Source: an uncultured Latescibacterota bacterium (lineage in GTDB: Bacteria > Latescibacterota > UBA2968). Taken from it: 64,000 bases of DNA. The notes beneath the pieces are model-generated. The model did no database searches. It had not been told where the DNA came from and worked only from the letters and a program-made list of their open reading frames with translations. A program made the position numbers and the translations under genes. This document shows positions 42,726 to 59,461 of this stretch, piece after piece. How positions within the stretch are numbered: position 1 is the first letter of the stretch; the number at the start of each line of letters is the position of its first letter. The stretch covers positions 2,494,394-2,558,393 of the forward strand of contig OY282377.1 in NCBI GenBank assembly GCA_958295785.1, given 5' to 3'.

Positions 42726-44090
42726 TTGGTGGCCGACATTGAGCGTGTTCAAAATCTCGTTGCAATACCCTTCGGCAATTTGACGTTCGTATTCTCGGAG
42801 GGACTCGTCTCGGTTGTGGGCCAATGGGTTTCTGATTTTGGCGAGAAGGGATGCGCGTTGATCCCAGTACTGTTTATCCCTGCCAAAAATGTCCTTAAAA
42901 CTGCTCCACTCCCCGAAGATTATTGCAAACAGATCTTGGGGATAGGTGAAATCGAGCAGATTTTGAGAAGCGTGGTTTCCGAATAGGCGTTCGTCTTTTT
43001 GTCGTGCCTCTCGGCATTTCTCGAAAATTTCCTTCAACTGCGGATGGGCTTTTTCGACCCGACCAACCCAACGCTCACCGTATTTATCTATCATGGCATT
43101 TGTGATCCGCTGGCGCAGTGCCTTCTCGGTATCCCGCCATATCGGCCACAAGTCAGCAGCAAATTCTGCTGCCCGCTCCTGCATCTCGAGATAAGCGTGA
43201 AAGTGTTCTGAGTAGGCGACATACCGTCCATTTTCGTTCGGCTTAATCAAGCCGTAGTTTTCAAGTGCAGTCACATCCGTTTGCCTGACATCAATCACAG
43301 GTCCGAACAAAATTTGAAGCAACTTATTCAGGGTCTCTTCCTCCTGTAGTAAGCGAATCGCATCGTCATAATGCTCAAAGACAGACTGGATAATCGCATC
43401 GGCGGCTTTATCGACATCAATTTTCCGATTTTGACGAAATTTTTCGACGATTTCGCAACCCAACATTTCGAGGAGATAGGGATGAGCCCCGCAATAGAAC
43501 AACACGCGCGCTCGGCTGTCATCGGATATGGGCATCCCGATAGACGAAAATTGAGAAAAGTAGGCTTCCAAGTCTTCATCGCCAAACATCGCCAAACGCT
43601 GAACCTGAAAAATATTGTGAAATGGCGAACTGGATCCAGCTTCATGTTCAATCTCTCGAATGCTCCGGCGAGACGTGAGCACGAGGGATAAGCGATAATC
43701 AGGGTAATCGGCCAGTTCTCGCAATCGCTGAAAAGCCGTATCCCCTTTGAAGAGCAGTCGTGCGCGATCAAATTCGTCTAAAATGAAAAGCGTGCCATAT
43801 CCAGCTTCTCGGACTTTTTTAAAAAAGCGTTTAATCTGGTCCCATGGATCATCAGCCGCCAACGCCTGGTCGGCCAAACGTCGAATCTGTTCTGATTGTT
43901 CAATGATCGTTTTGTAAGCCAGACTGCTTTTGACGATGCGATGCATGCCAATGATAGCCATGTTCCCCGGATTCATGGGCTGAATGATCCGGTTTTCAAT
44001 AACGCCTATCATTTTTTTTCGCCCGATAAAACGGTCCCCGCGGACGATTTTACCGTAATCGGCAAATGGATTTTCAAACGCATCATTCAT
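42687..44090 (-). CDS. Degenerate P-loop ATPase with C-terminal HEPN (Swt1-like) domain
   Basis: A 467-residue protein. FIGRKKMIGVIENRI leads to a P-loop-like GMHRIVKSSL at residues 48-57, in which Val stands where the last Gly before Lys is expected. The Walker B strand LFILDEFDRA (101-110) and a sensor strand LVLTSRR are present. The C-terminal part, about 310-450, looks like a Swt1-type HEPN domain with R-x4-H (R420, H425 in IRNPLAHNR), the active site of HEPN ribonucleases. AAAGGAA precedes the ATG at 44090, 11 bp after the stop of the 1560-residue gene. The role is probably as effector of that ATPase. Confidence 0.75.
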   Translation of the reverse strand: MNDAFENPFADYGKIVRGDRFIGRKKMIGVIENRIIQPMNPGNMAIIGMHRIVKSSLAYKTIIEQSEQIRRLADQALAADDPWDQIKRFFKKVREAGYGTLFILDEFDRARLLFKGDTAFQRLRELADYPDYRLSLVLTSRRSIREIEHEAGSSSPFHNIFQVQRLAMFGDEDLEAYFSQFSSIGMPISDDSRARVLFYCGAHPYLLEMLGCEIVEKFRQNRKIDVDKAADAIIQSVFEHYDDAIRLLQEEETLNKLLQILFGPVIDVRQTDVTALENYGLIKPNENGRYVAYSEHFHAYLEMQERAAEFAADLWPIWRDTEKALRQRITNAMIDKYGERWVGRVEKAHPQLKEIFEKCREARQKDERLFGNHASQNLLDFTYPQDLFAIIFGEWSSFKDIFGRDKQYWDQRASLLAKIRNPLAHNRDESLREYERQIAEGYCNEILNTLNVGHQAGTGQNAVNQST

Positions 44091-44101
44091 TTCGTTTCCT
44101 T

Positions 44102-47100
44102 TCACCCGTTGACGATGAGCCACTCATTAAAAAGGCCGACCCGAATGCGATAATACTGTCCCTGATCGCATTCAACGACATCTCGCTTCACGAGATCGTC
44201 TAGAATTGTATCAACCGATATTTCGCCATCCATTCTATCGCGATGACAGGGACCTGTCCCGCTATTGTCAGCAATCGTCTTCAAGATTTTTAGCGCGTCT
44301 TCATCTGAGATGGCATCTTCTGAGGTATCTCCCGAATTGATGAGATTGTCAAACTTATCCAAAGCCAGCGCATTGACACCGCGTATCAGTTCGTTTTTGA
44401 CTTGTTCCACATCCGCCTCTGTCACCAGTCTAGCGCGTTTGACATTCATGTATTCGACCAGACGGTTGCAAATGATTTGAATGTAGAATGGACTGCCCGC
44501 GGTGAGATTCAAAATTCGTTCAATCGCGTTTTCTCGGTAACGGCTTTCGCCTTGCCTGCCACCGATGCGTATGGGGTCGTCAATGAGTCGCCGGGCATCC
44601 TCCGGTTTGAGATAGGTGACGCGCTCATCCTGCGTTGTGCCAAACTCATTGGGAAAGCGGAGTTTGAACTTTGGCATCACATCTTGTCCGACCAACACCG
44701 CATTGAAATAATTTGCCTGCAACAGAGCCTTCCAGTTTTTCATGAACGATTCGGAAATTTTGCCCGCAACGATTCGACCGTAAATATACTGGAACTCATC
44801 GATCAGAAGCACGACCCGCACACCGCGCCAATCCGCTTGTTTCGAGGCGAGGCGTTTTAATTTTCCAAAGGTCTCTTCAAAGCATTGAAGCGGCGCGGGA
44901 TGGTCGTAAAATTCCCTATCGTTTGGGACGGAAAGGGCCAAGGGACTAAACCCCTCATCGACGCGATCTTCAATCGCGTATTCCAGTTTTGTTAAAATGC
45001 GTTTGAGAATCTGGTACAGGAGTTGTACGGAGGAATTCTCATCCTGAATAGCCCCAATATTGCCCAAATCGAGAATGAGGATATCCGCATCTTTTTGGAG
45101 TAAGGTCTTTAGGTGATACAACACTGAAGACTTTCCAGATCGCTTTTGTCCAAAAACCATGACGCATTTGCTCTGCAAGCGAGATTCTAGGATGACAGAT
45201 GCGATGTTTTGGAGCAACTCGGTACGCCCAAAGAACATGGCAGGATCGCCGACAATTCCCCCTTCGGCATAAGCAGCATACGGATTTTCAATGTCCTCAA
45301 ACTCATCTTTGGAATAGAGCCGAATGGAGAAATTTTCGACCGTGGTTTTTTCTTCTACTTCTGCACGGGTGCGATACCGAGCATAAATGGGTAAAGAGAA
45401 TGTTTGGGAGGCCAAAGCCTCGGCGGTCACACGCAATGGCACCTTTAGAATGGACTGTTCGCCTCCTCGTAAGGATCCATCTCGTTTAATCTCTAGTTCT
45501 GTAATCTGAAAAAACGTTGAATCTCCCTCAACGACCAACGCCAATGACTCAGCGGGGCTCCGCCCGCTCTCATTCTCTACCGCAATCTGAACCTCAATTT
45601 TTTCGTCTGTGTCCGGTACATAAGATTCCACCGGCAACCTAAGTGTCAACTGGGGCTTTGATGTCTCATAAATTTCATCGAGATATTCGCCGACTGTTTT
45701 CTTGATATTCTCGATAATCGGGTAAAACATCTCGACAGATATTCGGGTTGGACTTGCTTCTATCTCTTTTAGCAAATCGCGACAAGAATCGTCAATCTGC
45801 CTGCATAGACGTTCTCGCGCTTCAAACTGTACCTCCTTGCACATTTCTACAGCTCGCCTCAAGATATCCTGTAGATGTCGGATTCTCTCTTGGTCGAGAT
45901 CAAATCTGAGTCGCTGAACAATGTCCTGGGCCTGTTCAATGGCATCTTCCAACCAAGCTGTTGTCAATTGAAAGTTGTTGAAGTAGCGCAACCTGCTGTC
46001 AAGATCTCTCGTTTCTCCAGAGAGTCTATCACTCAATTCGTCCCATAGAGAGATAAAATCATTACGCGGCAACTCGGTACCGGAAGTCTGAACACCCTTA
46101 TACTTGAGATATTGTAGGGCCCTCTCGCGCAAATCCTGTTGATCGTATAGACGCCGAAGCAAACGGCTTGCCGCATATCTGCTGCGAAAAATGAGATAGG
46201 TAATGTCACCAAATATCCTTTTGGAATCAGCGAGTTTAATAACCTCATTTATTGTGTCATCAATAGTAGGAGTATGAGGCGGCAGAGGAACATGAGATCG
46301 GCCCAACCGTGAATAGAGGAACCTTACGAGTGCATTGACAGCATCTTGTTCATCTTTTCTCTGACTTCGATCTCCGTCATAAACACTGAGTGCTTCGGCA
46401 TACCATTCTCGCGCTGCGTCAAGATTTCCACTTTTAACTACTATGTCATCTCCTTTAGAGGCGAAACTTTTACAAAGGAATACATAAAATCTATTGGGAT
46501 CTTCATCTTTCAAACTATTGGGATCTTTATCTTCCAAAGTCCTGATGATTTTAGTAGCAGAGAGGTAATAACTGGCGCGATCAGACGGGCGGAATGTTTT
46601 CGATTCTGTCGCTTGACGTTCCAAATAAGAAATATCCGAATGCCTAAATTTCTTTGACCGAACGCGCTCGGGCGGTACACCTGTGAAGTCGCAACCATCC
46701 AAAAAGAACTGAGTGAAAGAACTGATCTGACCGCTCGAATAATCTGAAAGCTCCGTTTCGATAGCAATATCATCAACGAGTTCTCTCTCGCCAGTCTTTT
46801 TGGCTTGCAGAACGGCCTCGAGTAGTGCGGTGGCCCCTGCGTCTGACGAAACGGCTAAAATTTGATTGAGCAGGTCTTCAGCCTCGTCGTAGCGTTCCTG
46901 CCTTGACAGACAGAGAGCGAGGTTGCGTTTGGCGGAGATGAGGTCCGGTTGGCGTTTCAGAATTTCTCTGAATAGCTTCTCAGCTTCTTCATGTTTGTTT
47001 AGCTGGAAGTAGGAACTTGCAATTTGCCACTGAATTATATCCTCTTTTTTTTCCGTTTGCTCCTGTCGGAGTTGCTTTTTCAAAAGTGCAATCGCTTTGT

Positions 47101-48784
47101 CATGCATCTCGCCTTTTTTGTAAATAGTCGTCAGTACATTGTCCAATGATCGTTTGTTGCGAATCCGAGACCGATTTTGTTCGATGACTTTAACAGCATC
47201 CTCAAAGCGTTCGCGTTGCGATAGCAGCGATGCCAAATCGTTCACAGCGGATTCCAGATTGTCGTTTTGTAAAATGGCTTGCCGGAAGAGTTTCTCGGCC
47301 TTGTCCAAATCCTTCTCGACCAACTGCGCCCGCTTGGCGCGGGCAAAATAGCTCGATCCCTTTGGAACGCCTATCACCCGTGCGTACTCCCGCCATTTGT
47401 CATGATTTTCTCGCGCATTTGGGTAATTCTTGTTGATCGAAAGAACCCGTCTGATATGCGAGATGGCTACGCCATAGTCGCCAGCGTCCGCTACACTTTC
47501 GGCGAGTTCGTACCAGTCGTGAATCGTTTTGTGTCGGGAAATTCGGATCGCCTTAGGTCCTTTAGGCCCTTGAGTTGTCTGAAAGTCAACAGGAATTGAT
47601 TCACTGGTAAAACGAGTTATATCTTCGCGCAACATCGGATCTGTAATTGCGCTTACATGAAAGAAATATGAGGTTCCCTTTTGATCTCGAATAAAACCAT
47701 AGCCCTGATGGGAGTTATAGCTGTAAATATGCCCGCGAGGCGGGCGGTCCTCTAAGTTTGGAATCGCTGGCCTTGAAAACTCTTCAATGACGCTCTGATA
47801 GCCTTCTGTCGGTTCTCGGTCGAGGGCGTTCAAGATTTCCCGAATATCAGAAACCGAAACGCCCGCGATGGGTTTTCTCAAAGCCTCCCTTGCCCCTGAT
47901 TCCTCGTCTGCCACGATGAGGAGATAAACCGCTGTTTCCAACAGGAGCGCGGTTTCTTTTTGCGAAATTTTTTGGGACTTGGCTCGACAGATCGCGATCA
48001 AATCCCTGTGGCTGTCGAACTTGAGCAGCAGATTTATATACATATACCAAGCGTCCAATTCCTTCATAGCTGGCGATTTCCGGAACAGTTGGCTTAAACT
48101 GTAGCAAGCCAGTTCCCCGTTTCCGGTTTCTTGGGCGACGACGGCGAGGTTGTACCAATCGATCTCATTTTGAGAAGAAATTGCGGCTTCGCGATAAGAC
48201 TTGAGCGCGTCTTGTCGGTTGTTAGACAGGGTATAGAAATACGCGAGGTGGCGTTTTACACTCGCCGAACTCCGAAACCAATTTGCCATGTTCTCGAGTT
48301 CGGTGAGAATGGGTTGAATGCGGCCATAAGCCGCGCCGAGTTCGTTCACCTTTTTCGCGTATTGGTATTTGTCTCGGATCCGGTTCCAGATCACAGTCGT
48401 TTCTTTTTTCGCGCCACTGCTTAACTCCTCAGTTGGAAACACGAAATCCGGTTCTTTAAGCCCAATTTTCGCGCTTTGGCGTTTGGCTTGAAATCGCGCT
48501 TTAATTTCGACCTCTTTTTTCGTGATCTCAATTTCTGACTCTCTCGCACCCTTTCCTTCATCCGAGGGCTTGCTATTCCCGCCGTTAATTGGTGACGTAT
48601 CCAAAAGCTGCCAAAAAATGATTCTGTCAATGGGCACCATGGCGGCTTGGCCTTCCACGGTTTCAATTTTTATGAGTTCCTGTTCAATTCCTACAAGACT
48701 GCCAGAAATGTCACTGCCGCCCGCAAGAGAAAACTTGACTCGGCTTCCAAGTGGAATTTGCTTTTGAATCAATTGGGCATTCAT
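44102..48784 (-). CDS. Giant Sm-like/TPR/cold-shock/STAND-type ATPase
   Basis: A 1560-residue multidomain protein. An Sm-like barrel lies at about 10-62 (GSRVKFSLAGGSDISGSLVG). TPR-like helices lie at 160-300. A cold-shock/S1-like domain at 350-415 has GYGFIRDQKGTSYFFHVSAI. More TPRs lie at 480-650 and long helices at 730-1040. A CARDB-like beta sandwich lies at 1043-1155. The ATPase at 1165-1450 has FFGRTELLQNI, Walker A GQKRSGKS (1212-1219) and Walker B VVLLIDEFQ, and a winged-helix end spans 1490-1560. GAGG precedes the ATG. RNA or nucleic-acid sensing coupled to the downstream HEPN protein is inferred. I know no described protein with this order. Confidence 0.75.
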   Translation of the reverse strand: MNAQLIQKQIPLGSRVKFSLAGGSDISGSLVGIEQELIKIETVEGQAAMVPIDRIIFWQLLDTSPINGGNSKPSDEGKGARESEIEITKKEVEIKARFQAKRQSAKIGLKEPDFVFPTEELSSGAKKETTVIWNRIRDKYQYAKKVNELGAAYGRIQPILTELENMANWFRSSASVKRHLAYFYTLSNNRQDALKSYREAAISSQNEIDWYNLAVVAQETGNGELACYSLSQLFRKSPAMKELDAWYMYINLLLKFDSHRDLIAICRAKSQKISQKETALLLETAVYLLIVADEESGAREALRKPIAGVSVSDIREILNALDREPTEGYQSVIEEFSRPAIPNLEDRPPRGHIYSYNSHQGYGFIRDQKGTSYFFHVSAITDPMLREDITRFTSESIPVDFQTTQGPKGPKAIRISRHKTIHDWYELAESVADAGDYGVAISHIRRVLSINKNYPNARENHDKWREYARVIGVPKGSSYFARAKRAQLVEKDLDKAEKLFRQAILQNDNLESAVNDLASLLSQRERFEDAVKVIEQNRSRIRNKRSLDNVLTTIYKKGEMHDKAIALLKKQLRQEQTEKKEDIIQWQIASSYFQLNKHEEAEKLFREILKRQPDLISAKRNLALCLSRQERYDEAEDLLNQILAVSSDAGATALLEAVLQAKKTGERELVDDIAIETELSDYSSGQISSFTQFFLDGCDFTGVPPERVRSKKFRHSDISYLERQATESKTFRPSDRASYYLSATKIIRTLEDKDPNSLKDEDPNRFYVFLCKSFASKGDDIVVKSGNLDAAREWYAEALSVYDGDRSQRKDEQDAVNALVRFLYSRLGRSHVPLPPHTPTIDDTINEVIKLADSKRIFGDITYLIFRSRYAASRLLRRLYDQQDLRERALQYLKYKGVQTSGTELPRNDFISLWDELSDRLSGETRDLDSRLRYFNNFQLTTAWLEDAIEQAQDIVQRLRFDLDQERIRHLQDILRRAVEMCKEVQFEARERLCRQIDDSCRDLLKEIEASPTRISVEMFYPIIENIKKTVGEYLDEIYETSKPQLTLRLPVESYVPDTDEKIEVQIAVENESGRSPAESLALVVEGDSTFFQITELEIKRDGSLRGGEQSILKVPLRVTAEALASQTFSLPIYARYRTRAEVEEKTTVENFSIRLYSKDEFEDIENPYAAYAEGGIVGDPAMFFGRTELLQNIASVILESRLQSKCVMVFGQKRSGKSSVLYHLKTLLQKDADILILDLGNIGAIQDENSSVQLLYQILKRILTKLEYAIEDRVDEGFSPLALSVPNDREFYDHPAPLQCFEETFGKLKRLASKQADWRGVRVVLLIDEFQYIYGRIVAGKISESFMKNWKALLQANYFNAVLVGQDVMPKFKLRFPNEFGTTQDERVTYLKPEDARRLIDDPIRIGGRQGESRYRENAIERILNLTAGSPFYIQIICNRLVEYMNVKRARLVTEADVEQVKNELIRGVNALALDKFDNLINSGDTSEDAISDEDALKILKTIADNSGTGPCHRDRMDGEISVDTILDDLVKRDVVECDQGQYYRIRVGLFNEWLIVNG

Positions 48785-48962
48785 GTTTTTCCCTCATCGC
48801 AAAATATCGCTGTTGTCCCTGTCTTTGAGCACTTGGGCTTGCTGCTAAATTAAGCAAAATCATCGCGGCTTCCCCTCGTCAGAGAGATTGACAAGGGGCG
48901 CGTTGACGCCTAATATTGTCGCGGTTTTGCGCGGGATCACATCTCTAACCAAAGGAATTTCG

Positions 48963-50309
48963 ATGCCCGAATCTCCCAATGTCATCCTCGTCTTTGGCGA
49001 TCAGTGGCGCGCACAGGCGTTTGGTTATGCCGGCAACACCTGCGTGCAAACGCCCAACATCGACCGCCTCGCGTCTCAAAGCATCAATGCCTCGCACGCG
49101 GTTTCCGGGTGCTCGGTCTGCTGCCCGGCGCGTGCGTCTCTGCTCACGGGGCAATACCCCCTCACGCACGGCGTTTTTGTCAACGATGTCCACCTAAGCG
49201 ACAGGGCCATCAGCCTTGCACACGCATTCAAAAGCGCGGGCTACGACACCGCTTATGTCGGCAAATGGCACGTCAATGCAAATGGCCGATCCCAGTATAT
49301 CCCGCCCGAAAATCGGCAGGGCTTTGACTACTGGAAAGTGCGGGAATGCACGCACAACTACAACCACTCCTTTTACTATGCCAATGACTCAGACGAAAAG
49401 CGCGTCTGGGGAGGATACGACGCCATCGCGCAGACGCGGGATGTGCGAGACTACATTCAAAATCACAACGCGGAAAACCCCTTCCTCCTCGTGCTCTCGT
49501 GGGGGCCACCGCACGCGCCTTACGAAACCGCGCCCGAAAAATACCGCGCCATGTACCGCGCAGAAGACGTACCGCTGCGCCCCAATGTGCCGGCACAAGC
49601 CGAAGCAAACGCCCGAAAATGGATCGCGGGATACTACGGCCATTGCACCGCGCTCGACGACTGCATGGGCGATCTGCTCCAAACCCTCGACGACACGGGC
49701 AGGGCGGACAATACCCTCGTGCTCTTTTTTTTGGATCACGGCGATATGCTCGGCTCGCAGGGCAGCGCGAAAAAGCAACAGCCTTGGGACGAGTCCATTC
49801 GCATCCCCTTCTTGTTGCGTTGGCCCGCGCAATTTGGAACTGAAGGCCGCGAAATTGATGACCCCATTGACATACCCGACATCATGCCCACGCTTTTGGG
49901 CCTGTGCGGGATCGACATACCCGACACGGTTGAAGGCTTGGATTATTCGGCCTATCTCAACGGGGGCGACAATCCCTCTGATGGCGCGGCCCTTTTGCAA
50001 TGCCCGCAACCCTTTGGGCAGTGGACGCGCGCACAAGGGGGGCGCGAATATCGCGGGCTTCGCACCCGGCAATACACGTATGTTCGCACCCTGGATGGCC
50101 CGTGGTTGCTCTACGACAACAACGCCGATCCCTTCCAGTTGAACAATCTCATCGACAACCCCAACTCTGCGGATTTGCGCCGCGAATTGGACAACGGGTT
50201 GCAACGCCGCCTCAATGCACAAAACGACGCCTTTCTCCCCGGCGCGGCCTATATTGAACAGTGGGGATATACGGTCAATGAAACGGGCACAGTGCCTTAT
50301 GCGAATTAG
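48963..50309 (+). CDS. Sulfatase, copy 1
   Basis: A 448-residue type I sulfatase. The formylglycine motif C-x-P-x-R is CCPAR at residues 53-57, followed by ASLLTGQYP. Metal ligands are in FGDQWRAQ near 11, KWH near 101, and the DHGDMLG block near 258. Residue 257, just before that Asp, is Leu here but Ser in copy 2, where the family norm is SDHGD. Two other differences are Gly150 and Asp244. No signal peptide is present, so it would act in the cytoplasm. The ATG at 48963 follows AAAGGAA. No formylglycine-generating enzyme gene is nearby. Confidence 0.93.
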   Translation: MPESPNVILVFGDQWRAQAFGYAGNTCVQTPNIDRLASQSINASHAVSGCSVCCPARASLLTGQYPLTHGVFVNDVHLSDRAISLAHAFKSAGYDTAYVGKWHVNANGRSQYIPPENRQGFDYWKVRECTHNYNHSFYYANDSDEKRVWGGYDAIAQTRDVRDYIQNHNAENPFLLVLSWGPPHAPYETAPEKYRAMYRAEDVPLRPNVPAQAEANARKWIAGYYGHCTALDDCMGDLLQTLDDTGRADNTLVLFFLDHGDMLGSQGSAKKQQPWDESIRIPFLLRWPAQFGTEGREIDDPIDIPDIMPTLLGLCGIDIPDTVEGLDYSAYLNGGDNPSDGAALLQCPQPFGQWTRAQGGREYRGLRTRQYTYVRTLDGPWLLYDNNADPFQLNNLIDNPNSADLRRELDNGLQRRLNAQNDAFLPGAAYIEQWGYTVNETGTVPYAN

Positions 50310-50354
50310 CGAAACGGCGAAACGGTGTACAACTGCGTCAGCAGTTACATCGAC

Positions 50355-50382
50355 GGCCAGGCACAGGGGCCACGCCCCTACG
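50355..50382. repeat. 28-bp dispersed repeat, copy 12
   Basis: Variant GGCCAGGCACAGGGGCCACG, inside the duplicated sulfatase segment. Confidence 0.75.
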
Positions 50383-50402
50383 GCTCGATTCGTCGATTCG
50401 TC

Positions 50403-50923
50403 TATTCGTCACGATTTCTCTGCCCGCGCCTTGAGACTCGCGTAGGAATTGGCGCCGTTGACCTCTGTTTCAACTGGCAAATTGGAATCGCGCCATCCCA
50501 CGACCACGAGGACGCCATTTTCGACTTTGCCGCCAAAGCCGCCCTGCACATTGACCAGATTGGAATACCCGGCCCGCGCCATCAATTCCGCAGCCATCTG
50601 GGAACGCATCCCGACCTGACAGCCGCAAAACACGGGTTGTGCTTTGTCCGGCAACACCTTTTGAACAACGGTCAAAAAATTGGGATTCGGCATTATGCCC
50701 GCGGCCCCGGGCACGGCAACCGGAATGTTGATCGCGCCTTCGGGATGCCCCTGTGCAAATTCCATTTCCGTACGCACATCGAGATACACCGCATTTTCCG
50801 CTTCATCCATCGCGGCCTTCGCTTCTTTGGGTTCGAGCTGTGTAATCGCCATGTAACACTCCAAATTGAGGTGATGGTGTTTTCTTAGGTTGATTGATTT
50901 ACAGCATTCTGACCAGTTCCAGC
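50403..50923. repeat. 521-bp duplicated rhodanese segment, copy 2
   Basis: Same extent as 42205-42725. Only 12 bp separate it from the end of sulfatase segment copy 1. Confidence 0.95.
50409..50852 (-). CDS. Rhodanese-like sulfurtransferase, copy 2
   Basis: 147 residues, identical to copy 1 except Ala71 and Gly133; the active-site loop CGCQVGMRS is unchanged. The open frame continues upstream to 51101 without similarity, so the same ATG as in copy 1 is used. It lies downstream of the TOPRIM gene of cargo 2. Its purpose in each unit is unclear; it may be simply the chromosomal neighbour of the insertion site. Confidence 0.9.
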   Translation of the reverse strand: MAITQLEPKEAKAAMDEAENAVYLDVRTEMEFAQGHPEGAINIPVAVPGAAGIMPNPNFLTVVQKVLPDKAQPVFCGCQVGMRSQMAAELMARAGYSNLVNVQGGFGGKVENGVLVVVGWRDSNLPVETEVNGANSYASLKARAEKS

Positions 50924-51516
50924 AAGGGCCGGAACGCATCGGTTTCAAACGGCCATATACCGCTTTCTGCGGCCTCGCCCAAGCGAAGCCCCGGACGGTT
51001 CCTCGACGCGAGGAATGCGTGTAATCGCGCCTTTGACATCCATACTTTTTTTGGCCCTTCAATCTCCGTCTGGCTGAGGCATTCAAAATACCGATCCACA
51101 CATTTCATTGCGAGGTCCGCGCTTACCGAGTTGAGGCATACATCCTCGATCATCGTACCCGCTACGTTATGTGGAATAATCAAGTAGGCGACTTGCAACT
51201 CGCCATTTGAAGCGAGTTCAAGCGGACGAGATGGGGCAGGCAACGCCATATCCGACAATGCGTTGCAAATTCGGCGTTCTCTTTTCTCCCTGTCCGAATT
51301 TGCATCCGCCACGACTGCGAGAGATTGAACGAGACCAAATTCAGGCAAATCTCTAAAGGTATCGAGAAATCTCCGCAAGTTATCGATCCCGCCATAACCG
51401 TGTATTTGCACATCTCGGATGTTCAGATGCTTGGACAACGCGCCAAATACCCGAACGTCGTCGTTGCCCTCGACGATGACCTGTTTGGGTCGTTCGATCT
51501 TCAGGTGGTCGGGCAC
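50899..51516 (-). CDS. TOPRIM-type nuclease-like protein (DUF3226-like)
   Basis: Encodes 205 residues. The N-terminal half follows the TOPRIM pattern: PKQVIVEGNDDVRVFGALSK with the catalytic Glu near residue 16, GYGGIDNLRRFL, then LAVVADANSDREKRERRI with the metal Asp near 70. Such proteins are labelled DUF3226 or DUF4435 and occur with AAA ATPases in phage-defence units such as PARIS. The GTG start directly follows the stop of the ATPase gene (TAAGTG). The final codons lie inside the duplicated rhodanese segment. Confidence 0.72.
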   Translation of the reverse strand: MPDHLKIERPKQVIVEGNDDVRVFGALSKHLNIRDVQIHGYGGIDNLRRFLDTFRDLPEFGLVQSLAVVADANSDREKRERRICNALSDMALPAPSRPLELASNGELQVAYLIIPHNVAGTMIEDVCLNSVSADLAMKCVDRYFECLSQTEIEGPKKVWMSKARLHAFLASRNRPGLRLGEAAESGIWPFETDAFRPLLELVRML

Positions 51517-52626
51517 TTATCGAATCTCCATGTTGTATTTGATGGCCGTTTCGATCCGCTCGCTACCAAAGCCCACCGCGTTAATATCTTCTTGGACGCG
51601 ATCGAGGCGGTAGAATGCCAACGCTTGATGTCCCTGTTTTGCAAGCCCCCGGTGCGCTGCCCTGATACACTCGTCGCTGTGCGTGGTGGCAAATATCTGC
51701 ACATCAAATGATCGGGCCATGTCCATCAGGATGGAAAACACTTTTTCTTGCACAGTATGGTGCAAGCCGTTTTCGATCTCATCTATCAAGAGCAACCCGC
51801 CACGCGCCTCGCTCATCGACAATATGAGTCCGAGCATCCGGTTCAAGCCTTCGCCGAGCAATTGGACGGGGATGGGCCTGTTCATACCGTCTATATAGGC
51901 GTGAATGACGGGTATATTGTTGATCGCGATAAGCGTCAACCCCGTCAAGCGCGGTTCCAATAAACGCAAGAACCTCAGAATTTCAGCATCCTTTCTCTCC
52001 AACTGAAATTTTCCAAATCTCAACGCAATGGCTTGAAGGCTATCTCGGAGAACCGCTGGCATAAATATCGAATTGGTCCTATTGTGTACTGCTTGCCGTT
52101 CTTGGCGGATACTCTCACCCGTCAACGCAGCGCCAGGGGCAACCGCCATCTGCTCTGCAACCCACCATGCTCGGGACATGTATTTGCCATCGCTGCCATG
52201 TTGGTATCGAAACACGAGCTCAAATTCGCCTTCGGTTAGGGGCCGCGTCAATCGTTCTATGCTCGCCCTTTCCAAAGCATCGGCACGGATGGCATCGACC
52301 TGTTGGCGTTTCTGTAAATAGATCTCCAATTTTCGCGGATGGCTTCCCCAATCTCCTGATGCACTTATTTTGATGTGCGTACTCGTATCGAAGTTGCGAA
52401 AGATGTCTTGAAAAATCGTTTCAGGCCCAAGTGTTGGAAGACCCCTGAATGAATTTATTCTTTCACTCAATTCCGGGAGATCTGAACCCGCGAGCAACCA
52501 AAGTGCTTCGAGCAGAGCCGTTTTTCCCACCCCATTTTTCCCGCCAATCAGCGTCATCCGCCCAAGGCGTTCCAATGTGACCGACTCGAGATTGCGAAAA
52601 TTTGTTACGGTAAAACTCGTCAGCAT
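51517..52626 (-). CDS. OLD-like AAA/ABC ATPase
   Basis: A 369-residue ATPase of the OLD/AAA_15/AAA_21 kind. It starts MLTSFTVTNFRNLESVTLER. Walker A is LIGGKNGVGKTALLEALWLL near residue 27, the ABC-type signature is QLLGEGLNRMLGLIL near 255, Walker B is GGLLLIDEIENGLHH near 278, and the switch His is in FATTHSDECI near 310. It lacks a fused TOPRIM domain; that function is supplied by the next gene. The pair recalls split OLD-type systems such as PARIS. The role is inferred as sensing infection and activating the nuclease. Confidence 0.85.
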   Translation of the reverse strand: MLTSFTVTNFRNLESVTLERLGRMTLIGGKNGVGKTALLEALWLLAGSDLPELSERINSFRGLPTLGPETIFQDIFRNFDTSTHIKISASGDWGSHPRKLEIYLQKRQQVDAIRADALERASIERLTRPLTEGEFELVFRYQHGSDGKYMSRAWWVAEQMAVAPGAALTGESIRQERQAVHNRTNSIFMPAVLRDSLQAIALRFGKFQLERKDAEILRFLRLLEPRLTGLTLIAINNIPVIHAYIDGMNRPIPVQLLGEGLNRMLGLILSMSEARGGLLLIDEIENGLHHTVQEKVFSILMDMARSFDVQIFATTHSDECIRAAHRGLAKQGHQALAFYRLDRVQEDINAVGFGSERIETAIKYNMEIR

Positions 52627-52837
52627 GGGACATTCTCTTTTCGTCTTGGTGATGGTTTCAGAAGTTCATTTAGACTTGGGCTTGTTGCTAAATTAAGCAA
52701 AATCATCGCGGTGGGGCAAGCCCCAATTCTGGTCGCATCGCGGCTTCCCCTCGTCAGAGAGATTGACAAGGGGCGCGTTGACGCCTAATATTGTCGCGGT
52801 TTTGCGCGGGATCACATCTCTAACCAAAGGAATTTCG

Positions 52838-54184
52838 ATGCCCGAATCTCCCAATGTCATCCTCGTCTTTGGCGATCAGTGGCGCGCACAGGCGTTTGGT
52901 TATGCCGGCAACACCTGCGTGCAAACGCCCAACATCGACCGCCTCGCGTCTCAAAGCATCAATGCCTCGCACGCGGTTTCCGGGTGCTCGGTCTGTTGCC
53001 CGGCGCGTGCGTCTCTGCTCACGGGGCAATACCCCCTCACGCACGGCGTTTTTGTCAACGATGTCCACCTAAGCGACAGGGCCATCAGCCTTGCACACGC
53101 ATTCAAAAGCGCGGGCTACGACACCGCTTATGTCGGCAAATGGCACGTCAATGCAAATGGCCGATCCCAGTATATCCCGCCCGAAAATCGGCAGGGCTTT
53201 GACTACTGGAAAGTGCGGGAATGCACGCACAACTACAACCACTCCTTTTACTATGCCAATGACTCAGACGAAAAGCGCGTCTGGGAAGGATACGACGCCA
53301 TTGCGCAGACGCGGGATGTGCGAGACTACATTCAAAATCACAACGCGGAAAACCCCTTCCTCCTCGTGCTCTCGTGGGGGCCACCGCACGCGCCTTACGA
53401 AACCGCGCCCGAAAAATATCGCGCCATGTACCGCGCAGAAGACGTACCGCTGCGCCCCAATGTGCCGGCACAAGCCGAAGCAAACGCCCGAAAATGGATC
53501 GCGGGATACTACGGCCATTGCACCGCGCTCGACGACTGCATGGGCGATCTGCTCCAAACCCTCGACAACACGGGCAGGGCGGACAATACCCTCGTGCTCT
53601 TTTTTTCGGATCACGGCGATATGCTCGGCTCGCAGGGCAGCGCGAAAAAGCAACAGCCTTGGGACGAGTCCATTCGCATCCCCTTCTTGTTGCGTTGGCC
53701 CGCGCAATTTGGAACTGAAGGCCGCGAAATTGATGACCCCATTGACATACCCGACATCATGCCCACGCTTTTGGGCCTGTGTGGGATCGACATACCCGAC
53801 ACGGTTGAAGGCTTGGATTATTCGGCCTATCTCAACGGGGGCGACAATCCCTCTGATGGCGCGGCCCTTTTGCAATGCCCGCAGCCTTTTGGGCAGTGGA
53901 CGCGCGCACAAGGGGGGCGCGAATATCGCGGGCTTCGCACCCGGCAATACACGTATGTTCGCACCCTGGATGGCCCGTGGTTGCTCTACGACAACAACGC
54001 CGATCCCTTCCAGTTGAACAATCTCATCGACAACCCCAACTCTGCGGATTTGCGCCGCGAATTGGACAACGGGTTGCAACGCCGCCTCAATGCACAAAAC
54101 GACGCCTTTCTCCCCGGCGCGGCCTATATTGAACAGTGGGGATATACGGTCAATGAAACGGGCACAGTGCCTTATGCGAATTAG
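52838..54184 (+). CDS. Sulfatase, copy 2
   Basis: 448 residues, differing from copy 1 at Glu150, Asn244 and Ser257. The last gives the regular SDHGDMLG metal site, so this copy is the more normal one. The formylglycine Cys53 motif CCPAR is intact. Sulfate esters of sugars or small molecules are likely substrates, but none can be named. Beyond it lie DUF2237, an aldo/keto reductase and an Ldh2-type dehydrogenase in the same direction. Confidence 0.93.
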   Translation: MPESPNVILVFGDQWRAQAFGYAGNTCVQTPNIDRLASQSINASHAVSGCSVCCPARASLLTGQYPLTHGVFVNDVHLSDRAISLAHAFKSAGYDTAYVGKWHVNANGRSQYIPPENRQGFDYWKVRECTHNYNHSFYYANDSDEKRVWEGYDAIAQTRDVRDYIQNHNAENPFLLVLSWGPPHAPYETAPEKYRAMYRAEDVPLRPNVPAQAEANARKWIAGYYGHCTALDDCMGDLLQTLDNTGRADNTLVLFFSDHGDMLGSQGSAKKQQPWDESIRIPFLLRWPAQFGTEGREIDDPIDIPDIMPTLLGLCGIDIPDTVEGLDYSAYLNGGDNPSDGAALLQCPQPFGQWTRAQGGREYRGLRTRQYTYVRTLDGPWLLYDNNADPFQLNNLIDNPNSADLRRELDNGLQRRLNAQNDAFLPGAAYIEQWGYTVNETGTVPYAN

Positions 54185-54229
54185 CGAAACGGCGAAACGG
54201 TGTACAACTGCGTCAGCAGTTACATCGAC

Positions 54230-54257
54230 GGCCAGGCACAGGGGCCACGCCCCTACG
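54230..54257. repeat. 28-bp dispersed repeat, copy 13
   Basis: The same variant as copy 12, in the second sulfatase segment. Confidence 0.75.
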
Positions 54258-54317
54258 TCTCGATTTGGGGGGTGTCTGGGTCACTGACCACTAACTGCTT
54301 AACCTTTGGAGTGAACC

Positions 54318-54686
54318 ATGAATCGCGGAAAAAATGTTTTTGGCGAAGACCTCGTCGATTGTTGCACCGAGCCGATGACGGGATTTTTTCGAGACGGGTG
54401 TTGCCGCACGGGGCCGGGCGATCTGGGGTTGCACATCCTCTGCGCGGAAATGACCGAGGAATTTCTGGCTTTCTCCCGGGCTGCGGGCAATGACCTGAGC
54501 GCGCCCGTGCCGGAATATCGCTTTCCCGGCCTCAAACCCGGCGACCGCTGGTGTTTGTGCGTGCAACGCTGGGTCGAAGCGCTCAACGCAGGCGTTGCCC
54601 CGCCTGTTTTCCTTTCGGGCACGCACATCTCCACACTCGAATTTGTCGATATGGACGACCTCATCGCACACGCGCTGGACGATTGA
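54318..54686 (+). CDS. DUF2237 family protein
   Basis: Encodes 122 residues, full-length for the family. Marks are NVFGEDLVDCCTEPMTGFFR followed by DGCCRTGPGDLGLHILCAEM, then MTEEFLAFS, GLKPGDRWCLCVQRWVEA and APPVFLSGTHISTLEFV. The family has several conserved cysteines (CC, CC, WCLC) that could bind metal. No function is known. It shares direction and short spacing (43 bp) with the aldo/keto reductase gene downstream. Confidence 0.88.
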   Translation: MNRGKNVFGEDLVDCCTEPMTGFFRDGCCRTGPGDLGLHILCAEMTEEFLAFSRAAGNDLSAPVPEYRFPGLKPGDRWCLCVQRWVEALNAGVAPPVFLSGTHISTLEFVDMDDLIAHALDD

Positions 54687-54729
54687 CGACATTGCGCTTT
54701 GCTCTCTGCATTTCCCAAGGAGTTTACCC

Positions 54730-55662
54730 ATGTCCGATCTGCAAGTCCCCCGGCGTCGCTGGGGCAAAACCGAACTCTCCATCCCCGTGATCCCGTTTGG
54801 CACGCAGGGGTTTGGCAACCACTTTGGCCCCGTCACCGATACCGAAGCCGCGGACCTCATTCGGTTTGCCGTGGATATCGGCGTCAACCACTTCGATTGT
54901 GCGCGGTGTTATGGGGACTCCCTCCGCAAACTCGGCCTCGCCATCAAACAGGGCGTTGTCAGACGCGATGAACTCATCATCAGCGGGCGCGTCTGCTGTC
55001 ACAGCGCGGCACAATGGGGGGGATATGGCAGTGGCGATCCCAACTACACAGCCGAGCGCGTGCTCGCCGATGTGGAAGACCAACTCGGCATTTTGGGCAT
55101 CGACCACTTCGACGTGCTCTTCATCCACGACCCCGAAAACATCGAACCCACGCTCGCATCGGGGGGCACGCTCGAAGGCTTGGAAAAAGCGCGAGAGCGG
55201 GGATGGGTCAATTTCATCGGCTACGGCATGCGCCCCCACGACTTCCACCTCGCGCATATTGAATCCGGGCGCACCGATTGCTTCCTGTGTTTTGGCGATC
55301 ACAACCTCTTGCGGCAAACCATCGGCGACGACCTCTTGCCCGTTGCGGCCCAACGCGATTTGGGCGTGATGAACGGCTGGTCGATCAGGCGCGGCTATCT
55401 CACGGGCGTACCCGTTGAAAACTTCGTCCCCCGTGACCGCTGGCGAGACGACCACCACCGCGCGGAAACCATGCGCCTGTGGTGCGAAGAACGCGGTTAC
55501 AACCTGCTCGAACTCACCTTGCAATTTTCCATCCGCGAAACCCGCATCCACGGCAACCCCCTCGGCAGCCTCGACAAAGGCCAACTCACCGCCAACGTCC
55601 GCGCGGCATGTGCAACGGTTCCCGCCGAGGTGTTCGAAGCCTTTTTCGCTGCGGGGCTTTAG
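54730..55662 (+). CDS. Aldo/keto reductase
   Basis: A 310-residue AKR starting MSDLQVPRRRWGKTELSIPV. The barrel motifs are present: GVNHFDCARCYGDSLRKLG with the catalytic Tyr near residue 62, and VLFIHDPENIEPTLA with the His near 137. The usual catalytic Lys is replaced, because the strand reads ELIISGRVCC where most members have a TKV-type motif. That Arg may alter activity. The ATG at 54730 follows AAGGAG; upstream codons are in another frame of DUF2237. Confidence 0.85.
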   Translation: MSDLQVPRRRWGKTELSIPVIPFGTQGFGNHFGPVTDTEAADLIRFAVDIGVNHFDCARCYGDSLRKLGLAIKQGVVRRDELIISGRVCCHSAAQWGGYGSGDPNYTAERVLADVEDQLGILGIDHFDVLFIHDPENIEPTLASGGTLEGLEKARERGWVNFIGYGMRPHDFHLAHIESGRTDCFLCFGDHNLLRQTIGDDLLPVAAQRDLGVMNGWSIRRGYLTGVPVENFVPRDRWRDDHHRAETMRLWCEERGYNLLELTLQFSIRETRIHGNPLGSLDKGQLTANVRAACATVPAEVFEAFFAAGL

Positions 55663-55718
55663 GCATACAAAGCAGTGGTTCGTGGTTAGTCCCCATCCAG
55701 ACACCCCCAAAATCGAGA

Positions 55719-55746
55719 CGCAGGGGCGTGGCCCCTGTGCCCGCCC
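55719..55746. repeat. 28-bp dispersed repeat, copy 14
   Basis: Variant CGCAGGGGCGTGGCCCCTGT, between the reductase and dehydrogenase genes. Confidence 0.75.
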
Positions 55747-55805
55747 AAATGAATGTTCTGAGCGACAGTCGCCGATGACACAGCCTTGAGGAGACCCCGT
55801 CAACC

Positions 55806-56876
55806 ATGAAAATGCACACCTATCGACCCGCATATCTTCACGCGCTTACGAGACTTCTGTTTGAAGCGTCGGGCGCGACGTGCGAAATCGCACATATCGT
55901 CGCCAAAATTTTGGTCAACGCCAACCTCGCCGGGCACGATTCTCACGGCGTTCTCCGCATTCCAGTCTATCTCCGCCGCATATCTGAGGGCCTCATGGAT
56001 CCAGCGGCAGAACCCACAATCGTGCGCGAATCGACCACCACATTGGTCATTGATGGCAATCGGGGGCCGGGCCACTTCACGGCCTACCGCGCCCTCCACA
56101 AAGCCATGCAAAAAGCGCGAAGTGCTGAAATCTGCTCGGTTTCATTTACGCAAATTGAACACATCGGACGCTTGGGCGAATATGCCGAACTTGCCGCGCA
56201 CCAAGGGTTTGTCGGCATCAGCATGGTCGGCGTGGGATCGCCCAATGCCATGAAAGTCCTGCCCTTTGGCGGGAAAAAAGGCAGCTTGGGCACCAATCCC
56301 ATCGCCGTAGGCATTCCCACCGGCGACGAGACGCCCTTTGTCCTTGATGTCGCCACCTCAGCGGTCGCCGAGGGCAAACTTCAGGTTGCGCGGAGCAAAA
56401 ACCTGCCCATACCCGACCATCTCATTGTCGATAAAAACAACGCGCCATCAACCAATTCCCTCGATTTTTACGACGGAGGCTATCTGCGTACCTTTGCAGA
56501 ACACAAGGGATATGCGTTTTCCCTGTTCACTTGTTTGATGGGCCAACTTTCGGGAAACCGCGGTGAAGGCTCGCCTTCTGGAGGGGCTTTCATGCAGGTG
56601 ATTGACATCGGTGCATTCACAGACTTGGATCGTTATCAACAGGGCATCCGCGCATTCTTAAACGCGATGAAAACAACCGAACCCGCCGATGGCATAGACG
56701 AAGTTCAAGTGCCCGGCGAGTTTGAACATCGCAACCGCATACATCGCCTCAACCGCGGCATTGAAATACCCGACACCATCAACCGGCAAATTTTGGAATG
56801 GGCAGACCGCCTCGGGGTCTCGACAGACGACGCCATCGTCGAAAACCAAGACAACGCGCATTATTCTCGATCCTAA
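55806..56876 (+). CDS. Malate/L-lactate dehydrogenase family (Ldh_2) oxidoreductase
   Basis: A 356-residue NAD(P)-dependent enzyme of the Ldh_2 (YlbC/ureidoglycolate dehydrogenase) family. Conserved blocks are LAGHDSHGVLRIPVYLRRI near residue 42, FTQIEHIGRLGEYAELAA near 118, LGTNPIAVGIPTGDETPFVL followed by DVATS near 162, and FAEHKGYAFSLFTCLM near 230. It reduces or oxidises a 2-hydroxy acid; the exact acid is unknown. GAGGAGA precedes the ATG. The following IS begins 4 bp after the stop. Confidence 0.88.
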   Translation: MKMHTYRPAYLHALTRLLFEASGATCEIAHIVAKILVNANLAGHDSHGVLRIPVYLRRISEGLMDPAAEPTIVRESTTTLVIDGNRGPGHFTAYRALHKAMQKARSAEICSVSFTQIEHIGRLGEYAELAAHQGFVGISMVGVGSPNAMKVLPFGGKKGSLGTNPIAVGIPTGDETPFVLDVATSAVAEGKLQVARSKNLPIPDHLIVDKNNAPSTNSLDFYDGGYLRTFAEHKGYAFSLFTCLMGQLSGNRGEGSPSGGAFMQVIDIGAFTDLDRYQQGIRAFLNAMKTTEPADGIDEVQVPGEFEHRNRIHRLNRGIEIPDTINRQILEWADRLGVSTDDAIVENQDNAHYSRS

Positions 56877-56888
56877 TACTAAGAAGCC

Positions 56889-57296
56889 CTAACATAAAGA
56901 AATCAAGCGTCTGAAACAGAGGAGTGAACACCCGATGGAGAGGAACGCCTCATGGATGTCCGCTCTGCGCTCGTCGCGCACTCGCAGGCTGCGGAACTGA
57001 CGGAGCCAGGCCAGCGTCCGCTCAACGACCCACCGGTACACGCCCAACCCGCTGCCATGCTCTGCACCCCGTCGGGCGATCACCGGCGAGATGTAGCGCG
57101 CACGCAGGGCCTTCCGGTGTGCCCTCGAGTCATAGGCACGGTCTGCATACAGCCGTTGGGGTCTGCGACGCGGACGACCGCGTTTGCCTCTGACCGCGGG
57201 CACAGCGTCCACCCATGGCAACCATTGCGTCACATCTGGCCGGTTCGCCCCGGGCACAATCGCGGCCAGAGGCAGCCCGTTGGCATCGGTGATCAC
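56889..57296 (-). CDS. IS5/IS427-type transposase, second frame (orfB part)
   Basis: 135 residues counted from the GTG. The frame itself extends upstream to the junction near 57347, where it reads KTGPNPTDRRKPGRKHH, the classical IS5-type DDE entry. Further blocks are LYADRAYDSRAHRKALRARY and VYRWVVERTLAWLRQFRSLR with the final catalytic Glu. It has no good start of its own, so it is probably made as a fusion with the first frame by frameshifting. Confidence 0.85.
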   Translation of the reverse strand: MITDANGLPLAAIVPGANRPDVTQWLPWVDAVPAVRGKRGRPRRRPQRLYADRAYDSRAHRKALRARYISPVIARRGAEHGSGLGVYRWVVERTLAWLRQFRSLRVRDERRADIHEAFLSIGCSLLCFRRLISLC

Positions 57297-57333
57297 ATGA
57301 TGCTTACGCCCGGGCTTGCGGCGGTCTGTGGGA

Positions 57334-57699
57334 TTAGGCCCGGTTTTTCCCCCCAGCGCCTACCGCACGCAGGGAGGCACTGTCCACGCAGGCACGAGAC
57401 CCGTCCAAGGCGTCGGCCGCTCGCAGTTTGGACAACAGCAGATGATGAAGCCGCTCCCACACGCCGGCGTCATGCCATGCCTTCAGACGACGCCAGCAGG
57501 TCATCCCGGAACCCCACCCCATCTCTTGGGGCAACTGCTCCCATGGGATGCCGCTCTTCAGGACGAATAGCATGCCGGTCAACGCCTTGCGGTCATCAAT
57601 GCGCTTACGTCCGGGAAAGCGGAACCGTCTCGGCTTGGGAACCGGCAAAAGGGGGTGGCCCTTTTCCCAGAGTTCATCGCTCACGAGTGGTTTGGACAT
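57334..57699 (-). CDS. IS5/IS427-type transposase, first frame (orfA part)
   Basis: 121 residues starting MSKPLVSDELWEKGHPLLP, with GIPWEQLPQEMGWGSGMTCWRR and CVDSASLRAVGAGGKNRA, the DUF4096-like start of IS5 transposases with the first catalytic Asp. The ATG at 57699 follows GAGGAGGGA. At GGGGGGAAAAAC (near 57343-57354) the frame leaves the family. The orfB frame is reached by +1 (or -2) movement there. Either a programmed slip or a one-base change explains it. Confidence 0.85.
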   Translation of the reverse strand: MSKPLVSDELWEKGHPLLPVPKPRRFRFPGRKRIDDRKALTGMLFVLKSGIPWEQLPQEMGWGSGMTCWRRLKAWHDAGVWERLHHLLLSKLRAADALDGSRACVDSASLRAVGAGGKNRA

Positions 57700-57837
57700 C
57701 TGTCCCTCCTCGCCCGGTTGCAGATGCCGGGCATGTACGTTGTAAGGGTTGGGCTGAGGAGAAAATCGGCCTCTCACAAATCCATGTCAACGCTTTCTGT
57801 TAGGGCTTCTTAAAATCAAATGGGTATAACTGTCTGA

Positions 57838-57997
57838 AACGCGTATTAACCAGATGGCGCAGATGACGCGGATTGGGCGGCACCGGTAGGGCAGAACGTG
57901 CAGGGGGTGTAAAGGATGTAGCAGGTGCGGAGGACGCAGTGAGTGGCAGGGGGTGGGGTTAATCCGCGCAATCCCTAAATCCGCGACAATCCGCGAT
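57838..57997. repeat. ~10-bp period arrays and repeat-derived spacer
   Basis: A short tandem of ACCAGATGGCGCAGATGACG with GCGGATTGGGCGG at the left, and AATCCGCGCAATCCC / CGCGACAATCCGCG at the right (57959-57997). No gene is seen. This is the fourth location of the array family. Confidence 0.55.
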
Positions 57998-58019
57998 TCA
58001 GACAAGGGACTGACCGCTT

Positions 58020-58344
58020 GATGGCGGGAATGGGTGACGAACCACTTGACAGAGCGAGAGATATTGCAGATTATTTATTGATGTTACGCAGTTTGTCCAA
58101 TTCAAGCTGTAAGACGTGTTCTGCTTGTGGCGTGGTAAAAGTTGCCACAGCGTGAACGGGTCTTTGTTTGCGACTGTGGCTATGAAACTGACCGAGATTT
58201 GAACGCGGCCACAAACATTCATCGGGTTGGGATGTCAACCCTTGCAGGCGAAGATGTCAGATGGCTTGTTGCTTTTGCCGCACTCTTTGTTGATCGCACA
58301 ATCTCCTTAGAAGCCCCTTTGCTTCAGCAAGGGGAGTTCGTCAC
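58020..58344 (+). mobile_element. Relic of an IS200/IS605-type element with a tnpB tail
   Basis: The decayed 3' end of a TnpB gene is visible in two frames: SSCKTCSACGVVKVA up to a stop at 58151, then RERVFVCDCGYETDRDLNAA followed by TNIHRVG in the next frame (58142-58230), the zinc-finger and final Asp region of TnpB. A subterminal hairpin CCCC(T)TTGCT / AGCAAGGGG at 58314-58334 and a TTCGTCAC end follow, as at IS605 right ends. The left part of the element is missing. Confidence 0.7.
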
Positions 58345-58358
58345 TTGGTGGTATCCCC

Positions 58359-59288
58359 ATGGCAGAATACGATACGATTTCCAAACATTTGATTCAAACC
58401 TACCCTGCCGATTTCGTCCGCTTCACCCTCGGACGAGCCGATGTCGAAATCCGCGCAATCCTCGACCCCGAGATCCCTAGGGTTGAAACGCGCTTAACCG
58501 ATAGCCTGATTCGCGTGTGGATTGATGGCGAGGAGGTCTTGGTACACACGGAATTTCAAACCACCGACAGCAGGGATTCCCCCATGCCGATCCGCATGGC
58601 CAGCTATATCATCCGGCTCATTGAATACTATGGCCTGCCGGTCTATTCCCATGTGATCTACCTACGGCCCGATGCCGGGCGACGCGATGAAGGGCTTTAC
58701 CTCCAAAAGCATCCCGACTACCCAGTGGTGGTGCGCTATAAGGTGATTCGGCTGAACGAGATAGACGGGCAAGACATTGTTGAAGGTGATCATCCGGGTT
58801 TGCTTCCATTCGCGCCATTGATGAAGCGTCCTGCGGGGATGACTTCTGAGGAATGGTTGCGTCAGTGCATTCGCAGGACCGATGCCGTGTCGTTGGCGCA
58901 GGCCGAAAAGGCTAACTTTTTGGGCGGCTTGGCTGTATTAAGTGGGTTGGCGTATGATCCAAACACTATCACGAGTATCATTTCTCAGGAGGGTCTTATG
59001 GACGCGATTATGCGTGAATCATCGTTTGCCCAATACCTCAAGGAACTGGGCGTTAAACAAGGCATTGAGCAGGGCATTGAGCAGGGCATTGAGCAGGGCA
59101 TTGAGCAGGGCATCCAAGAGAGCATCCGAGAAGCGTTGGCGGTTCGCTTTGATGCGGGTGTGGCCGGCCAGTTCGCTGATCGCATTGCGGTCATCGACGA
59201 TTTGCAACGGCTCAAGCAGTTGCATCGTGCAGCAGTGCAAGTCAATAATCTGGCGGCATTTCAGCGCGTGTTGGATGCGGAGGCATGA
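58359..59288 (+). CDS. Rpn/YhgA-like PD-(D/E)xK nuclease family protein
   Basis: A 309-residue protein of the recombination-promoting nuclease/putative transposase group. The core around residues 30-70 (RADVEIRAILDPEIPRVETR, then VLVHTEFQTTDS) contains the Asp and the E-x-Q of the PD-(D/E)xK fold. MPIRMASYIIRLIEYYGLPV is typical of the family. Near residue 228 the sequence GIEQ is repeated four times (12-bp units GGCATTGAGCAG, 59068-59109), forming a helical linker. Function in DNA exchange is known for Rpn relatives. It begins 15 bp after the IS605 relic. Confidence 0.82.
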   Translation: MAEYDTISKHLIQTYPADFVRFTLGRADVEIRAILDPEIPRVETRLTDSLIRVWIDGEEVLVHTEFQTTDSRDSPMPIRMASYIIRLIEYYGLPVYSHVIYLRPDAGRRDEGLYLQKHPDYPVVVRYKVIRLNEIDGQDIVEGDHPGLLPFAPLMKRPAGMTSEEWLRQCIRRTDAVSLAQAEKANFLGGLAVLSGLAYDPNTITSIISQEGLMDAIMRESSFAQYLKELGVKQGIEQGIEQGIEQGIEQGIQESIREALAVRFDAGVAGQFADRIAVIDDLQRLKQLHRAAVQVNNLAAFQRVLDAEA

Positions 59289-59427
59289 CGCGATTTCCCG
59301 CTGAATGACAAGCGGAGCATTGCGTAACGTCAAATGTTCACTGAAATCAGCTTTGGGCTTTCAGCCCCACCTCGCCACCGCTGATTGCTTGTTTTGCTGA
59401 CCGCCAACCGCTGACAACGAAAAACAA

Positions 59428-59461
59428 AAGCCCGAGTTCCTTGCGAACCCGGGCTTGTTTT
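59428..59461 (+). terminator. Intrinsic terminator downstream of the Rpn-like gene
   Basis: Stem AAGCCCG(A)GTTC / GAAC(C)CGGGCTT with a CTTGC loop, then GTTTTGT. It lies 140 bp after the stop; the bases between hold no gene. Confidence 0.6.

Follow-up and report, generated by a model that had tools for sequence, protein, structure and literature searches.

In the PARIS system, the ATPase AriA, as a hexamer, sequesters AriB and, upon a trigger, releases it to cut tRNA-Lys (PMC11455837), and the covered parts of PMC12409363 likewise describe an ATPase that sequesters a TOPRIM nuclease and frees it on infection, with tRNA being cut. The rule for PARIS detection, as it is given in the portion of PMC9122126 covered, requires a DUF4435 protein (AriB) as the partner of the ATPase. 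In the class scheme of the OLD enzymes, PARIS is class 4, and no DUF3226 class is named in the parts of the sources covered (PMC10568477, PMC12796447). Furthermore, in E. coli, AAA ATPases neutralise TOPRIM_OLD toxins, and one AAA pair screened against phages in this host gave no hits (PMC10440598, in the sections covered).

The pair described here lies within a 64,000-nucleotide stretch of the genome of an uncultured Latescibacterota bacterium, the whole of which is referred to as the window. Both genes are on the reverse (-) strand. The first (51517-52626, ATG start), assigned from its open reading frame (ORF) and from profiles, encodes a complete ABC/OLD-type ATPase of 369 residues that has no TOPRIM domain and matches the Pfam families AAA_21 (83.9 bits, cut-off 27) and AAA_15 (82.3 bits, cut-off 32.1). 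The second (50899-51516, GTG start), assigned from its ORF, from profiles and from a predicted model, encodes a TOPRIM protein of 205 residues. The junction reads TAAGTG, i.e. the stop codon of the ATPase gene and, at once, the start codon of the TOPRIM gene. An earlier note on this DNA had described an ATPase devoid of a TOPRIM domain directly adjoining a TOPRIM gene through this junction, and both ORFs are exactly where it had placed them; its remark that the TOPRIM protein looked closer to DUF3226 is also borne out, this being the sole Pfam match of the protein at E <= 0.1 (96.1 bits, cut-off 27). No Rfam family matched positions 40000-60000 of the window at gathering scores, and the sole tRNA gene found is that at 30255-30330.

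Among the PADLOC models, the ATPase is best matched by PDC-M38A (5.8e-58, residues 1-369), followed by AbiLi (6e-52) and AriA (2.3e-28), and the TOPRIM protein by PDC-M38B (1e-9, residues 9-185), with no other model, AriB and AbiLii included, at E <= 1. The relatives scanned gave a PDC-M38A match in 46/46 cases and a match to one PDC-M38B model in 45/48; AbiLii was matched at E <= 1e-3 by five of the 48 relatives of the window TOPRIM protein. On profile grounds, the pair is the unproven PADLOC candidate PDC-M38. A literature search returned no paper naming PDC-M38, DUF3226 or PF11536, and an activity of any DUF3226 protein was not found in the literature searched; the part of PMC11514479 that was covered names, among PDC systems, others only.

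Residue conservation was evaluated on sets made non-redundant at 80%, in which near end-to-end profile matches were kept (from 119 to 107 TOPRIM and from 137 to 121 ATPase ORFs), a filter that favours complete C-termini. The ATPase motifs are conserved, namely Walker A (G29-K35), GEG (258-260), Walker B (D282-E283) and the H-loop (H316), with K35, D282 and H316 found in 121/121 sequences and E283 in 120/121. In the TOPRIM set, the glutamate of the VEG motif (Glu16, codon at 51469-51471, -) is present in 106/107 proteins, and the aspartate of the D-A-[D/E/N] motif (Asp71, 51304-51306, -), a third invariant acidic residue (Glu124, 51145-51147, -) and K/R162 in 107/107. The position that follows D-A is Asp in 67, Glu in 28 and Asn in 12 of the 107; the window protein has Asn (D71-A-N73), and the strict DxD motif is absent from it. 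Position 20, which we take to be the second acidic position of OLD, is Gln or Ala in 19/107. The earlier note had singled out Glu16, correctly, and the region of Asp70, which is in fact Asp71; the lack of conservation at these sites that it had named as evidence against its proposal is not seen.

The predicted model of the TOPRIM protein (pLDDT 91.6) has as its best match a hypothetical protein of Pyrococcus, 2p62 (Z 13.2, rmsd 3.2, 189 aligned), followed by the TOPRIM domains of OLD enzymes with Z of about 10 (at best 10.6 for 6nk8, rmsd 4.6, 159 aligned). The structure comparison with AriB, called for in the earlier note, gives a weak match (Z 7.1, rmsd 5.6, 165 aligned), which may reflect a common arrangement and no more. 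The 48-member TOPRIM profile matches the PH0156 (2p62) sequence at E 2.2e-4; the first TOPRIM profile, run against the sequences of solved structures, found weak matches only (AriB, E 0.6). In profile-profile comparisons, in which the partner profiles were small (3 to 7 sequences), DUF3226 matches DUF4435/AriB with 93.6% probability (E 2e-7, 62 columns, residues 6-73) versus 4.7% for RloB and 2.0% for the GajA TOPRIM domain, and, as judged from these profiles, it is nearer to DUF4435/AriB than to either of the other two. The DUF3226 protein is probably a metal-dependent nuclease. For the ATPase model (pLDDT 77.8), the matches are to SMC and Rad50 heads, PtuA and GajA, at Z of 16 to 18 and with many ties (for GajA 8x5i, Z 16.9, rmsd 3.5, 253 aligned). 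The end of the ATPase, residue 369, maps near residue 371 of GajA, and the alignment of the TOPRIM model to GajA begins at about residue 361.

The likeness of the ATPase to SMC and Rad50 heads raises the question of whether the pair could be a house-keeping one, made of a Rad50/RecF-like ATPase and a TOPRIM nuclease engaged in DNA repair or RNA processing, and no conflict system at all. A cell-cycle role reported for an archaeal OLD ATPase, in the part of PMC12796447 covered, would agree with this, as would the broad range of phyla among the matches listed, which includes Latescibacterota, Chloroflexota, Cyanobacteria, Planctomycetota, Proteobacteria, Bacillota, archaea and others. However, presence is patchy within one genus, DUF3226 being found in 15/60 relatives, a single genome holds four divergent copies, and the pair is carried on plasmids and viral contigs, all of which make a house-keeping function very unlikely.

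The association of the two genes is far from chance. In the genome of the window (5.66 Mb, one contig), each of the four DUF3226 genes has an ATPase gene directly upstream, as do all the DUF3226 loci examined in this genome and its relatives together (31/31). Among the best 80 loci of named genomes, which span the phyla listed above, 78 are paired, the exceptions being L051, where a short frame contains a DUF3226-like stretch, and L098; among the matches listed, the closest named locus is that of a Candidatus Latescibacterota genome (70% identity). On viral contigs, 18/29 DUF3226 loci are paired. Moreover, the distances among the ATPases correlate with those among the TOPRIM proteins over 100 loci (Mantel r 0.82), a value reached in 0/999 permutations. 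L032 and L018 apparently represent one contig, being equal in length and content. Besides its four DUF3226 pairs, the window's genome contains single DUF4435 and RloB loci and a single GajA-like gene.

Plasmids provide a second setting. A relative of the ATPase is encoded in 151 of 72,556 plasmid records, 134 of which are from Klebsiella, and a DUF3226 partner lies next to it in 5/5 of the plasmids inspected out of the 151. In Klebsiella ColRNAI plasmids of 4167 and 4693 bp, the annotated genes are those of Rop, a helix-turn-helix protein, the ATPase and the DUF3226 protein, the larger plasmid having one small gene in addition. On such tiny plasmids the main payload is therefore this pair, which travels as a module of its own. 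A literature search on these small plasmids found no paper on point. Phage records gave two partial ATPase matches, neither of which covers 80% of the protein.

A payload of this kind, together with the fact that 135/151 of the matching plasmid records are typed as non-mobilizable, is also what could be expected of a toxin-antitoxin or plasmid-maintenance module without phage sensing, in which the TOPRIM protein would be the toxin, the ATPase the antitoxin, and loss would be punished; indeed, AAA:TOPRIM pairs are so classed in the part of PMC10440598 covered. Nevertheless, the ATPase is large, of the motor type and with fully conserved motifs, and the genes nearby match more defence models: 250 PADLOC models were matched at E <= 1e-5 by genes up to 2 kb from the pair versus 42 by genes more than 6.5 kb away, a count to be taken as a crude hint rather than a rate, because one protein can match many models. 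This test covered 145 ORFs in each group, out of 270 nearby and 215 distant ones, with genes of more than 700 residues excluded and spurious ORFs in both groups. The same crude count bears on the location of the pair mainly outside defence islands, which the earlier note had listed as speaking against its reading and which is not what was found. As PARIS also illustrates that toxin-antitoxin-like pairs can serve defence (PMC11455837), a pure maintenance module is an unlikely account.

The genomic surroundings of the window pair carry traces of its history. Its flanks are recent repeats: a 521-bp stretch, comprising a rhodanese gene and the final 25 nt of the TOPRIM gene, is found at 50403-50923 and again at 42205-42725 (99.4% identity, 3 differences), and a 1530-bp stretch with a sulfatase gene at 52736-54265 and 48861-50390 (99.35%). 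Between the other copies of these repeats lies cargo 1, with genes for proteins of 478 and 1560 residues (42726-48823, -), flanked on one side by what is left of the TOPRIM gene, 25 nt of its 3' end (42701-42725, 25/25 identical), and on the other by a sequence that resembles the upstream region of the ATPase gene (48824-48868). Among ten congeners, an orthologous pair with about 65-75% identity occupies the rhodanese site in three (G005, G009 and G010) and is absent from it in seven, where 173 to 1266 bp separate the rhodanese gene from a distant sulfatase gene; in 10/10, the orthologue of the window's sulfatase is found elsewhere, next to g54724 and Ldh2. The simplest reading is that a rearrangement set the pair by the sulfatase gene, that the rhodanese-pair-sulfatase unit was then duplicated in tandem, and that cargo 1 eventually replaced the pair of copy 1. 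Such a history makes the pair an older resident of the rhodanese site and no newcomer, so that its designation as 'cargo 2' in the earlier note is misleading.

Other features of the region may be recorded. Of the cargo 1 products (42687-48784), the 478-residue protein matches PDC-M34B (4.8e-11), and the 1560-residue one has TPR, a cold-shock-domain match and nSTAND-like ATPase stretches. The pair of congener G009 is preceded by a gene (L171:6842-7981) whose DUF4268 product weakly matches NucS_C, and which may represent another cassette at the rhodanese site. Elsewhere in the window, 56882-59871 holds two near-perfect inverted repeat pairs, one of 58 nt (93%, arms 56882-56939/59814-59871) and one of 57 nt (89%, arms 57762-57818/59750-59806), and 63342-63554 contains three imperfect direct repeats of 52 nt.

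We favour, with a probability of roughly two-thirds (0.66), the reading in which PDC-M38 is a self-contained two-gene module whose ATPase would restrain the TOPRIM nuclease until a phage trigger releases it. The intact ATPase motifs, the conserved TOPRIM acidic residues, the near-constant pairing and co-inheritance, the patchy presence, and the carriage on plasmids and viral contigs support such a module; the logic of an ATPase restraining a nuclease is taken by analogy from PARIS and the AAA:TOPRIM_OLD pairs. The ATPase, probably an oligomer like AriA of PARIS, would bind and restrain the nuclease, and a phage-made trigger would alter it; the nuclease, once freed, could cut host nucleic acid, either tRNA, which is the target in PARIS, or DNA, which is that in OLD, and cleavage would stop both growth and phage. 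Points against this reading are that no DUF3226 activity was found in the literature searched, that PDC-M38 is a database candidate only, that the TOPRIM protein has no strict DxD and position 20 is Gln or Ala in part of the set, that the AAA pair screened in E. coli was without phage hits, and that the neighbour count is crude. An [E/D]-x-Arg tail of the ATPase may help to hold, or to signal to, the nuclease or a neighbouring ATPase subunit.

This tail, which in the window protein consists of Glu367-Ile368-Arg369 (codons GAG ATT CGA, 51520-51528, -), is found as [E/D]-x-R directly before the stop codon in 114/121 non-redundant ATPases, as EVR in 80, EIR in 14, EMR in 11 and other forms in 9. 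In six of the remaining seven, the motif is one or two residues earlier. When the end-to-end filter is not applied, the [E/D]-x-R end is found in 133/142 ATPase ORFs scoring more than 100 bits, redundant copies included. Control ATPases do not share it: none of four paired with DUF4435 (PARIS-type) and none of seven AAA_21 ATPases adjoining RloB genes end in this way. All seven of the latter and three of the four DUF4435 partners were confirmed as AAA_21; six DUF4435 loci were available, of which L207 and L208, being long single ORFs, were not counted, and L209, among the four counted, is below the DUF4435 cut-off. The alignment of GajA with the ATPase profile stops short of the E-x-R end. We know of no report of this ATPase tail.

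The GAG codon of the tail also fits the ribosome-binding site (RBS) of the TOPRIM gene, and it encodes the tail Glu in 110/126 cases when 50.3 are expected from the codon use of the genes themselves, so that it probably serves the RBS as well. The tail might, then, be a mere RBS, meaningless for the protein. However, the final Arg, kept in 116/121 ATPases, uses all six of its codons at near background frequencies, which implies that the constraint on it acts on the protein, and Asp takes the place of Glu in 7/121. Furthermore, viral mini-ATPases without a neighbouring DUF3226 gene retain the tail as E-[V/I]-R in 4/5 copies, two of which look identical, and an RBS function alone is, on balance, doubtful.

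These miniature relatives of the ATPase, of 140-186 residues, were observed on viral contigs (L137:3796-5137, L138:5449-5868, L139:4458-4877 and L140:1229-1717); they have Walker A, Walker B and the H-loop, lack the middle part of the protein and adjoin no DUF3226 gene. Two of them, searched against 50,697 phage records, gave no match. A speculative and quite unlikely extension of our reading would see in the tail, absent from PARIS and AbiL, a latch that silences the TOPRIM nuclease and is combined with RBS coupling, and in the viral mini-ATPases decoy inhibitors. If it were true, the RBS codons would couple synthesis of the nuclease to that of its guard ATPase, and the nuclease-less viral proteins, with their Walker motifs and tail, would be decoys against PDC-M38.

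PDC-M38 was already known as a database candidate; what is added here is the ATPase tail along with its controls, the finding of the pair as a plasmid payload, and the history of its replacement. The module is widespread, in bacteria, archaea, small clinical plasmids and viral contigs, with no function found in the literature searched, and it is now sharply testable, given the defined residues, a tail with PARIS and RloB controls, and natural plasmids that carry nearly the pair only. Finally, one genome exhibits a resident defence-type pair that was duplicated and of which one copy was replaced by another cassette.

As compared with the known systems, the window pair agrees with PDC-M38 in the best full-length ATPase match, the best TOPRIM match and the adjacency of the genes, and differs in that its TOPRIM protein is a divergent member (36 bits). 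The closest solved fold to the latter, PH0156 of Pyrococcus horikoshii (2p62), is itself uncharacterised. The OLD enzymes of classes 1-3 and GajA of Gabija have the same two domains and folds, but in one chain, whereas the window pair is split at about the domain border; no ORF with both the DUF3226 and the ATPase profiles was present among the loci scanned. AbiL resembles the pair in its AbiLi component, the second-best ATPase match, and in its two-gene ATPase and TOPRIM_OLD build (PMC10440598, in the part covered), but the window TOPRIM protein has no AbiLii match at E <= 1 and the RloB-adjoining ATPases end otherwise (0/7 with E-x-R); membership of AbiL was rejected on the partner, for which no AbiLii/RloB match was obtained. 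With PARIS, the pair has in common a separate ABC ATPase gene followed by a TOPRIM nuclease gene, an ATPase matched by AriA models and by the AAA_15/AAA_21 families called for, and a TOPRIM core related by profile. However, DUF3226 is found where PARIS has DUF4435, no AriB model matches at E <= 1, and PARIS-type ATPases are without the E-x-R end. As the defining DUF4435 partner is absent, DUF3226 being the only partner family at E <= 0.1, the pair is not PARIS by definition, and membership was rejected. Of the 'PARIS-like defence variant' of the earlier note, what stands, on TOPRIM folds and profiles, is a split module of an OLD/PARIS-kind ATPase and a TOPRIM protein, and what falls is inclusion in PARIS proper; the pair is PARIS-like in its build and probably in its working.
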